From Artemia franciscana (lineage: Eukaryota; Arthropoda; Branchiopoda; Anostraca; Artemiidae), in the NCBI RefSeq assembly GCF_032884065.1, contig NC_088872.1, positions 37,493,132-37,557,131 of the forward strand: 64,000 bases of DNA, read 5' to 3'. How positions within the stretch are numbered: position 1 is the first letter of the stretch; each line of letters starts with the position of its first letter. Below are positions 903 to 14,171 of the stretch, in pieces. The notes below the pieces were generated by a model. The model ran no database searches and was not told the origin of the DNA. It saw only the letters and a list, made by a program, of their open reading frames with translations. Both the position numbers and the translations under genes were made by a program.

Positions 903-1789
903 TCTATATATATAAAAATAAGTTGTCTGTGGATCTGTGGATCGTGGATCAGGTGACGTCACCTGAAAAAACTGGATCAGGTGACGTCAAAACTGAAAAA
1001 ACTAAAAAAGGCAAAAACTACAAAAAAAACTAAAAACTAATAAAAAAAATAAAAAAGCTAAAAACTAAAAAAACTAAAAAAAGGCAAAAACTACAAAAAA
1101 AACTAAAAACTAATAAAAAAGCTAAAAAACTAAAAAAACTAAAAAAAAAGGCAAAAACTACAAAAAAAACTAAAAACTAATAAAAAAAATAAAAAAGCTA
1201 AAAAACTAAAAAAACTAAAAAAACTAAAAAAAGGTAAAAAACTAAAAAAACTAAAAACTAAAAAAAACTAAAAAAAGGAAAAAACTGAAAAATAAGCTAA
1301 AATAAAGGTAAAAACCAATAAAAAACTAAAAAAAAAACTGAAAAAACTAAAAAAAGGCAAAAAACTACAAAAAAACTAAAAACTAATAAAAAAAGTAAAA
1401 AAGCTAAAAAAATAAAAAAAATAAAAAAACTAAAAAAAGGTAAAAAACTAAAAAAAATAAAAAATAAAAAAAAACTAAAAAAAGGAAAAAACTGAAAAAT
1501 AAGCTAACATAAAGGTAAAAACCAATAAAAAACTAAAAAGAAAAAAAGGAAAAAACTAAAAAAAATTTTCATCTAAAAAACTAAAAAAAACTAAAAAAGG
1601 TAAAAACTAAAAGAACTAAAAAAGAAAAAAATAAATGACGACACTCAAAGAGAAAGCGACCAGGACAAAAGGAATGTTCGATTAGCAATCAACAAAGCAC
1701 CGGGACACGGGGAGTATAAATGACGACCAGGACATAAGTAAAAAAAAAAATTAACAAAACTAAAAAGAAGGTAAAAACTACAAAAAAAC

Positions 1790-2310
1790 TAAAAAGAAAA
1801 AAAAACTAAAAACTAATAAAAAAACTAAAAAATCTAAAAATCTAAATAAACTAAAAAAGAAAAAAAAGGAAAAAAATAAAGGAGAAAAACAAAACTAAAA
1901 AACGAATGTATATACAGACCGGTACACCGGGATACAAATGACGACCGGGACACAGGGAATATAAATGACGACCGGGACACAGGGACACAACTACAACGGG
2001 GACACCGGGGGAAACAGGGGGATATAAATGACGACCGGGACAAAAAAACTAAAAAGAAAAAAAAACTAAAAACTAATAAAAAAACTAAAAAATCTAAAAA
2101 TCTAAATAAGCTAAAAAAGAAAAAAAAGGAAAAAAATAAAGGAGAAAAACAAAACTAAAAAACGAATGTATATACAGACCGGGACACCGGGATACAAATG
2201 ACGACCGGGACACAGGGAATATAAATGACGACCGGGACACAGGGACACAACTACAACGGGGACACCGGGGGAAACAGGGGGATGTAAATGACGACCGGGA
2301 CACCGGGACA
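1790..2310 (+). repeat. 260-bp tandem duplication inside Helitron A
   Basis: Two nearly identical 260-bp units, each made of A-rich filler followed by a block of GACGACCGGGACAC minisatellite. Equivalent positions are 1860 and 2120. The duplication is recent, with only a few differences between the units. Confidence 0.85.
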
Positions 2311-2317
2311 GGGAATG

Positions 2318-2517
2318 GTCGATTAGCAATCACCATCAACAAAGCTCAAGGGCAATCATTAGAATCATGAGGTATAGATCTGAATACAGATTGTTTTCCC
2401 ATGGACCATTATATGTTGCATGTTCAAGAGTCGGTAAACCTGACAATCTATTTTTATGCAAAGACAATGGGACAGCAAAGAATGTTGTATATTCGCAAGT
2501 TTTACGTAGTTAAAACC
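2318..2517 (+). pseudogene. Relic of Helitron helicase C-terminus (unit A)
   Basis: Matches the last about 65 codons of the RepHel reading frame of unit C, including the helicase segment ITINKAQGQSLE and the VGKPDN region. It is interrupted by a stop and a shift of frame near the middle. Only the 3' end of the gene is present, directly before the TA array and the Helitron terminus. Confidence 0.8.
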
Positions 2518-2607
2518 ATATATATATATATATATATATATATATATATATATATATATATATATATATATATATATATATATATATATATATATATATA
2601 TATATAT
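2518..2607. repeat. (TA)n array in Helitron A
   Basis: About 90 bp of TA repeats between the helicase relic and TCTATATTCACAGGTGGG. Units B and C have only a few TA steps at the same place, so this is a local expansion. Confidence 0.95.
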
Positions 2608-2696
2608 CTATATTCACAGGTGGGACATAGGGACACAACTACAATGGCGCGTAACTATTATGGCGCGTAACGACTTACGCGCGCGGGGGGGCTTGG

Positions 2697-2764
2697 GGGG
2701 GGGGCGCGAAGCGCCCCCACCAACTAGGTGTTGGGGTGGCGCGAAGCGCCACCCCAACAGCTAG
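2697..2764 (+). other. Doubled Helitron 3' terminus (unit A)
   Basis: Two successive hairpins built on GCGCGAAGCGC, each followed by a CTAG (first at about 2725, second at 2761-2764). Helitrons end in CTRR preceded by a short hairpin. Here the signal occurs twice, about 40 bp apart. Confidence 0.75.
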
Positions 2765-12876: not shown

Positions 12877-12957
12877 GCCGAAGTAGCTGAGTTGGTAAAT
12901 CGTTATGTTCCAGGTTCCAGGTCCGAGAGGTTCTAGGTTCGAACCTTGGCTTTAGCA
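12877..12957 (+). repeat. tRNA-like sequence inside Helitron unit E
   Basis: Contains an A-box-like TAGCTGAGTTGG (12884-12895) and a B-box-like GGTTCGAACCT (12936-12946). The ends GCCGAAG and CTTTAGC can pair with one mismatch and one G-T pair, as an acceptor stem would. The T stem needs several wobbles and I could not place a sound anticodon arm. It is more likely a SINE head or a decayed tRNA than a working tRNA gene. Confidence 0.5.
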
Positions 12958-13199
12958 TTAATACAAAAGAAGAAAAAAAACTAAAAAAGGTAAAAACTAC
13001 AAAAAAAAAACTAAAAAGAAAATACTAAAAAAAACTAAAAACGGTAAAAAACTAAAAAAAAGGTAAAAAGTACAAAAAAACTAAAAAGAAAAAAACAACA
13101 AAAACTAATAAAAAAAAATAAAAAAAATAAAAACTGGAAAAGAAAAAAAAACAAAAAAGGAAAAAAAACTGAAAAATAAAGGAGAAAAAGAAAACTAAA

Positions 13200-13520
13200 A
13201 ACCAGGACACAGGGAATATAAATGACGACCGGGACACTCAAAGAGAAATTACAGACTGGGACACTGGGACACAAATAACGACCGGGAGATATAAATGACA
13301 ACCGGGACACTCAAAGATAAATTACAGACCGGGACACAGGGAATATAAATGACGACTGGGACGCTCAAAGAGGAATTACAGACTGGGACACTGGGACAAA
13401 AATGACGACCGGGATACTGGGAATATAAATGACGACCGGGACACAGGGACACAACTACAAGGGGGATGCCGGGGGCACAGGGGGATATATAAATGACGAC
13501 GGGGACACAGGGAATGTTCG
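13200..13520 (+). repeat. GACGACCGGGACAC minisatellite in Helitron E
   Basis: Irregular tandem copies of about 28-60 bp units with AAATGACGACCGGGACAC and GGGAATATA. The same minisatellite fills parts of units A and D, so it belongs to the non-autonomous Helitron body. Confidence 0.8.
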
Positions 13521-13715
13521 ATTAGCAATCACCATCAACAAAGCTCAAGGGCAATCATTAGAATAATCAGGTATAGATTTGAATACGGATTGTTTTTCCC
13601 ATGGACAATTTTATGTTGCATGTTCAAGAGTCGGTAAACCTGACAATCTATTTATATGCACAGACAATGGGACATCGAAGAATGTTGTAGATTCGCAAGT
13701 TTTACGTAGTTAAAA
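13508..13715 (+). pseudogene. Relic of Helitron helicase C-terminus (unit E)
   Basis: Matches the last about 65 codons of RepHel (LAITINKAQGQSLE, then VGKPDN) with an internal stop. Followed directly by the TA array. Confidence 0.75.
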
Positions 13716-13731
13716 ACATTCATATATATAT

Positions 13732-14029
13732 ATATATATATATATATATATATATATATATATATATATATATATATATATATATATATATATATATATA
13801 TATATATATATATATATATATATATATATATATATATATATATATATATATATATATATATATATATATATATATATATATATATATATATATATATATA
13901 TATATATATATATATATATATGTATATATATATATATATATATACATATATATATATATATATATATATATATATATATATATATATATATATATATATA
14001 TATATATATATATATATATATATATATAT
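13732..14029. repeat. (TA)n array in Helitron E, about 300 bp
   Basis: Nearly pure TA with two variant steps (TATG near 13922 and TACA near 13944). It occupies the same position, before TCTATATTCACAGGTGGG, as the 90-bp array in unit A. Confidence 0.95.
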
Positions 14030-14171
14030 TTCTATATTCACAGGTGGGACACAGGGACACAACTACAATGACGCGTAACGACTTACGCGTACCGGAGGGC
14101 TTGGGGGGGGGTTGCGAAGCGCCCCCACCAACTAGGTGTTGGGTGGCGTGAAGTGCCAACCCAACAGCTTG

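Follow-up and report, generated by a model that had tools for sequence, protein, structure and literature searches.

We identified five Helitrons joined head to tail, all on the + strand and with no host DNA seen between them on reading the sequence, at positions 903-14171 of a 64,000-nucleotide stretch of the Artemia franciscana genome (hereafter, the window), and we consider it probable that this chain was built mainly by serial insertion at one TA-rich edge. The window corresponds to C10:37493132-37557131 of a 1.27-Gb assembly with 6468 contigs. The chain offers a clear natural case in which multimer formation and repeated insertion can be weighed against each other for head-to-tail Helitrons, and here the evidence favors repeated insertion.

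Composition of the chain

The block consists of units A to E plus a truncated sixth copy, A0, at the left. The stretch from 903 to 14171 is free of N, and the reading of the sequence and of the unit edges upheld the description in the initial annotation: five Helitrons in one orientation, without host DNA between them, mixing one almost intact unit (C, with one stop), one decayed unit (B), and three non-autonomous ones (A, D, and E). Unit A (903-2764, +) is a non-autonomous Helitron of 1862 bp with a TC start and a CTAG end, containing an A-rich satellite body, a remnant of the RepHel end (approximately the last 63 codons), an inner (TA)n with a long run at 2518-2607, and a double 3' hairpin. 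Its satellite (989-2302) has a 206-bp period at 996-1564 and a 260-bp period at 1780-2302, the latter with 98% matches. Unit B (2765-6961, +; 4197 bp) is a decayed Helitron of the autonomous type that lacks the TC start and ends in CTAG; in comparison with C, it carries several stops, frameshifts, and deletions throughout, its HUH motif is altered, its second 3' hairpin is gone, and, according to the alignment, its start is short by about 29 bp. Unit D (12120-12588, +; 469 bp) is a short non-autonomous Helitron without TC and without any RepHel remnant, having a reduced 3' end that closes in CTAG. Finally, unit E (12589-14171, +; 1583 bp) is non-autonomous, lacks TC, ends in CTTG, and keeps of RepHel approximately the first 34 and the last ~63 codons; its interior has a TA stretch of 308 bp (13722-14029), and its double 3' hairpin is worn.

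Unit C (6962-12119, +; 5158 bp) is a nearly intact autonomous Helitron with a TC start and a CTAG end. Its RepHel protein is encoded in two open pieces, separated by a single break, the in-frame stop at 8690-8692. The N-terminal open frame (7145-8689, +) includes STPR (score and three amino acid peptide) repeats and the start of the Rep domain (PF14214, PF21107), and the remainder (8693-11767, +; 1025 codons) includes Rep (HUH) and the PIF1 helicase. Helitron_like_N (PF14214) was matched in the two pieces with E-values of 6.9e-11 and 3.3e-37, and the second piece additionally matched PF05970 (PIF1; 5e-66) and PF21530 (Pif1_2B; 1.6e-18), while a search of this piece against NCBIfam gave no match. 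Residues 1-1004 of the 1025 in the second piece can be aligned with Helraiser (PDB 7lcc; 700 bits, 3.6e-209), with GLPHAHIL in common. The STPR repeats (PF21107) at the N-terminus of B and C scored 30.8 and 28.2 bits, with a cut-off of 27; the repeat unit is 69 bp, present in 5.7 copies in C (7205-7597) and 4.7 copies in B (2978-3302). Our literature search found no account combining Helitrons and STPR repeats. Screening with the second protein piece of C gave 7 pattern stretches in the viral contig set and 88 in the genome contig set, none of which was confirmed. The apparent phage relatives of this piece (102 records) were rejected as general helicase similarity; all are below 60% identity, and the 20 matches listed cover the helicase half only.

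To the left, A0 (387-902, +) is a truncated copy related to A that has no 3' end and is interrupted by the only N run of the chain region (100 N, 546-645). Its left edge lies in a (TA)n microsatellite (318-407), its two parts are 92.8% (387-545 versus A 901-1064) and 98.8% (646-896 versus A 1500-1750) identical to A, and its end forms the sequence immediately left of A (..AAACTA). Outside 301-14300, the 64-kb window contains no chain matches (blastn, E<=1e-10, rows of at least 80 bp, low-complexity filter on), and the C protein has no match in the window beyond the chain (tblastn, E<=1e-3). Just downstream, 14172-15600 weakly resembles the STPR repeat region (64% over 115 bp; E 1.5e-4, from a small search) and, more weakly still, the A-rich body; this segment is possibly an older, badly decayed start of an STPR-bearing Helitron, and we do not claim it as a unit. 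Elsewhere in the window, reverse transcriptase remains are present at 50336-51043 (-; PF00078, 1.7e-19).

Family assignment

The units are canonical (Helitron1-type) Helitrons, with worn ends in B, D, and E. The RepHel protein (HUH Rep plus PIF1-type helicase) that defines the canonical type is encoded by C, split by one in-frame stop; a 3' hairpin is found in A, C, and E; a 5' TC is present in A and C and missing from B, D, and E; and the 3' CTRR occurs as CTAG in A-D and is replaced by CTTG in E, an end also known from some Helraiser and maize insertions (PMC4778049). The non-autonomous units A, D, and E were assigned solely from their termini and the sequence they share, and B, D, and E count, by homology, as relatives of A and C that have decayed, not as intact members. 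Regarding the insertion site, the outer flanks (A on the left and T on the right) would fit entry at an A-T site with no duplication of the target. Assignment to Helentron/Helitron2 was rejected, as the Pfam matches of the C pieces include no endonuclease domain and the ends are TC and CTAG. Helentrons carry an endonuclease domain (PMC4067079), and the traits given for Helentron/Helitron2 are a T-rich or TT target and terminal hairpins or inverted repeats (PMC5148889).

Junctions and terminal hairpins

CTAG stands at the exact base in all four inner junctions, where it is followed by TATATATATATGTG from A to B, by TCTATATATATAAAAATAAG from B to C, by TATATATATAAAAATAAG from C to D, and by TACTATATAAAAATAAG from D to E. 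However, an exact CTAG-TC joint occurs at only one of the four, namely B to C. The junctions from A to B and from C to D pass directly into TATATATA, and the one from D to E into TACTATATA, all three without TC; at the start of D, the missing TC is the sole difference from the starts of A and C within the first ~25 bases. Thus, the initial claim that each CTAG end is followed by the next start holds for the CTAG at every joint and fails for the TC, found at one start in four, and for the end of E, which is CTTG. The chain as a whole is flanked by ACTA on the left and TATA on the right, which corresponds to one normal A-T site for all five units.

The family 3' end has the sequence CACCCCAACAGCTAG and variants. 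In A (2676-2764, +), it forms two tandem hairpins, the second being a CTAG...CTAG palindrome (-39.2 kcal/mol, z -7.3, matched by none of 200 shuffles), and C (12034-12119, +) has the same two hairpins (-33.2 kcal/mol, z -5.8, again matched by none of 200 shuffles), so that in both units the outer hairpin is a palindrome with CTAG on both arms. The doubled hairpin could represent a duplicated terminator. In E (14085-14171), the double hairpin is worn, and its fold is equaled by 3 of 200 shuffles; for the 3' ends of B and D, 84 and 11 of 200 shuffles, respectively, were as good, with a GC stem still predicted in both.

Under even use of A-T sites, the number of exact joints expected genome-wide is about 0.05, 0.4, or 44 for assumed copy numbers of 3321, 10,000, or 100,000, respectively. 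On this basis, four joints at one place are not explained by chance under even targeting. The junction pattern gave one match in the viral contigs (L001), which was rejected as an AT-rich chance hit because no Helitron start follows it in the 720 bases read.

Divergence between the units

The identity across the shared RepHel end (192-195 bp) is 99% for B-C, 94% for A-E, and 89-90% for the four cross pairs. The common 3' ends (100-154 bp) are 90-96% identical (A-C 96%, A-B and B-C 95%, and E versus the others 90-92%), and the 5' ends of B, C, and E 79-89%; D resembles the other units only in pieces, at ~68-77%. B and C agree at 97.3% of 4189 aligned sites, and their decay is very unequal, with 11 frame-breaking lesions in B (5 stops and 6 coding indels not a multiple of 3) versus 1 in C (the stop), an asymmetry with a two-sided sign test of ~0.006. 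The polarized substitutions do not agree with this asymmetry, with 7 in B, 11 in C, and 10 unresolved; 9 of the 11 in C come from one piece for which E is the sole reference. Together, lesions and substitutions give no clear insertion order, and the lesion counts are kept as a weak clock for B versus C.

Probable serial insertion and its alternatives

Several observations favor serial insertion. The units do not go back to a single parent copy (89-99% identity in shared coding DNA), the outer flanks form a single canonical A-T site, and the 11 lesions of B versus 1 in C are unlike what twins from one event would show. In addition, 11 of the 41 family tails listed in the genome search (see below) abut TA runs, and Helraiser prefers A-T sites with an AT-rich 3' side, which is exactly what the start of a Helitron offers. 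Among 1,751 Helraiser insertions in human cells, AT was preferred, with AT-rich DNA within ~20 bp, mostly on the side of the transposon 3' end (PMC4778049), and, according to a review, it has been suggested that transposon dimers in Drosophila melanogaster arise mainly through insertion site preference (PMC12628747). In mechanistic terms, a new copy would land where an A precedes a resident TC(TA)n start, between this A and the T that opens the start, or more broadly in TA runs; its CTAG end would then adjoin the old start, and a fresh A-TC target would be rebuilt at the new left edge, making the site reusable. The absence of TC at three starts would reflect later change within the TA run. Nested insertion in older TA runs is not supported as the cause of TC loss, since the TCTA pieces it should leave to the left of A are absent, with no more than (C)TA present there. 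Several findings speak against serial insertion: a left-edge model predicts CTAG-TC everywhere, but only one of the four joints has it; the TCTA pieces just mentioned are missing; the polarized substitutions give no clear order; and under a strict left-edge order B would be the younger of B and C despite being much the more damaged. The damage in B may predate its move, but a prior loss of its 5' end can hardly be assumed. Our statements on the order of insertion and on the target preference of the family transposase are what we infer from these features.

One alternative is that several units were inserted at once, either through rolling-circle read-through or from a CTAG-TC circle, as the initial annotation had also proposed. 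Helraiser is known to form circles with a precise CTAG-TC joint (PMC4778049), the B-to-C junction has just such a joint between units of very high identity, and a single outer A-T site would be compatible with this as well. However, a multimer made from a single template would yield like units, and those of the chain are unlike: A, B/C, and E are 6-11% apart in shared coding DNA, D is alignable only in pieces, three of the four joints lack TC, and even within B/C the lesions are very unequal. A single multimer is thus rejected for the chain, and we regard a one-event origin as unlikely overall; it is feasible for B and C alone, which, judging by their sequences, would fit either a dimer or a duplication in place. 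The other proposal of that annotation, insertion favoring the AT-rich starts of older copies, is the one that gained ground, given the unlike subfamilies, the single outer A-T site, the preference of Helraiser, and the listed tails at TA runs.

Unequal recombination through the common 5' and 3' ends could also enlarge an existing pair with exact unit boundaries, deriving B from C or the reverse. The similarity of these ends would permit it, and the same composite structure in B and C (see below) would place B beside C without transposition. Nevertheless, it accounts for B and C only, not for A, D, and E, and is at odds with the asymmetry of the lesions, so we judge it about as improbable as a single insertion event. 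An assembly artefact, in which repeats were collapsed or misjoined, appears very unlikely. The 100-N gap in A0, the long TA runs in A and E, and the repetition of parts of A in A0 at 93-99%, as a haplotype join might produce, are what could be expected from it, but the chain itself has no N, its four joints all differ while each has CTAG at the exact base, and the B-to-C and C-to-D joints lie far from the long TA runs.

Family 3' tails in the genome

Serial insertion at TA-rich sites was further considered in the light of a genome search with 13900-14171 as query, a segment itself holding TA sequence, which gave 3321 first-look candidates, of which 40 were scored, yielding 87 matches. Among the matches listed, there are 41 family 3' tails, E itself included. 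A second match starts exactly at the tail end in 13 of these 41 (e.g., C7:33034492, C2:7918625, C10:9982567, and C15:10603676), and for the other 28 none begins within 10 bp of the tail; these contexts on the right side of the tails are taken from match positions. Eleven of the 13 (11 of the 41 in the matches listed) run into TA, corresponding to ~50 bp of the TA part of the query, some of it interrupted. In 3 of the 13, again among the matches listed, the tail of another copy is involved, once after an intervening TA and twice directly (94% and 90%). As a rough yardstick from the 64-kb window, long TA runs make up ~3-4% of A-T sites outside the chain. On the level of sequence, the 11 of 41 tails at TA runs are a strong lead, short of proof. 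Separately, two family 3' tails were observed ~1.1 kb apart on the same strand at C776:28427-28561 and 29557-29694 (-), a candidate for a second tandem pair.

Composite structure of B and C

Both B and C contain, after the end of RepHel, an inner piece resembling a Helitron 5' end. That of B (6656-6762, +) aligns with the start of C with z 6.5, and that of C (11780-11885, +), which reads TCTATCTATATAAAAACGAGTTGTGTG.., with z 5.4 (0 of 500 shuffles in both cases). In local alignments with the starts of A and D, the inner pieces gave z 4.4-5.9 (0-1 of 500 shuffles), and the similarity with the start of E is weak, with z 1.7 for B and 2.7 for C (26 and 7 of 500 shuffles, respectively). A second remnant of the RepHel end follows the inner start in both units, and then the shared 3' end; between these parts of the sequence, no CTAG or hairpin end was seen. 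We infer that the composite was an earlier tandem pair that lost its inner terminator and was later copied as one element; chains thus seem to fuse into composites.

A broader reading, which we put forward tentatively as a possibility, is that TA microsatellites are the target of the family and that its TA-rich start and inner TA runs serve as built-in landing pads, thereby seeding chains that extend themselves, with failure of a worn 3' terminator giving rise to composites such as B and C, with a second start, the tail of the partner, and a doubled terminator. If the TA targeting is true, it would explain how one family makes both chains and new composite elements. Targeting of TA microsatellites is known in Mutator-like elements, and a helitron-like element of Lepidoptera is reported to disrupt GAAA microsatellites; in the portions of the literature covered by our search, we found no Helitron reported as targeting TA microsatellites, and a search on the insertion preference of adjacent Helitrons also found nothing.

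Comparison with known systems

The chain had been regarded as unusual, which proved right only in part, given that head-to-tail Helitrons and a tandem of three have already been published. Tandem Helitrons are named for Myotis lucifugus, Drosophila, rice, and maize, and three are found in tandem in Metarhizium acridum (PMC5148889). The chain is therefore a mixed five-unit example of a kind already published from bats, maize, Drosophila, rice, fungi, and plant centromeres.

The head-to-tail pair in maize AF466202, read as consecutive insertions (Du et al. 2008, PMC2267711), resembles the chain in having a CTAG-TC joint and unlike units. That paper gives insertion at an A-T site of the old start as one of two orders that could have occurred, and it also sets out the tandem model proposed by Pritham and Feschotte. 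The maize case differs in comprising two units, in a plant, with an order unclear to its authors, who considered a GT insertion possible, whereas here five units and a fragment are present, with mixed autonomy. Similarly, the Metarhizium acridum array is head to tail, as here, and its authors do not decide between insertion into the 5' end and rolling-circle replication; the elements described in that study are non-canonical fungal ones, whereas the chain is canonical (PMC5148889). The centromeric Helitron arrays of plants (Xiong et al. 2016, via PMC12628747) are also tandem, but, as summarized in that review, their units are truncated, and many have several 5' ends but just one 3' end, whereas A-E each have their own 3' end.

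With respect to composites, FoHelis arose in Fusarium by self-insertion and, likewise to B and C, have two 5' ends and one 3' end per element; their repeated 5' piece is typically below 200 bp, whereas B and C are RepHel elements with a second start and tail after the gene (PMC5148889). Finally, Helraiser/Helibat1 resembles C in a RepHel alignable over nearly the whole queried piece, in its TC and CTAG ends, and in its A-T target (PMC4778049, PDB 7lcc); in comparison with Helraiser, the STPR repeats at the N-terminus and the doubled 3' hairpin stand out as features of the family described here.
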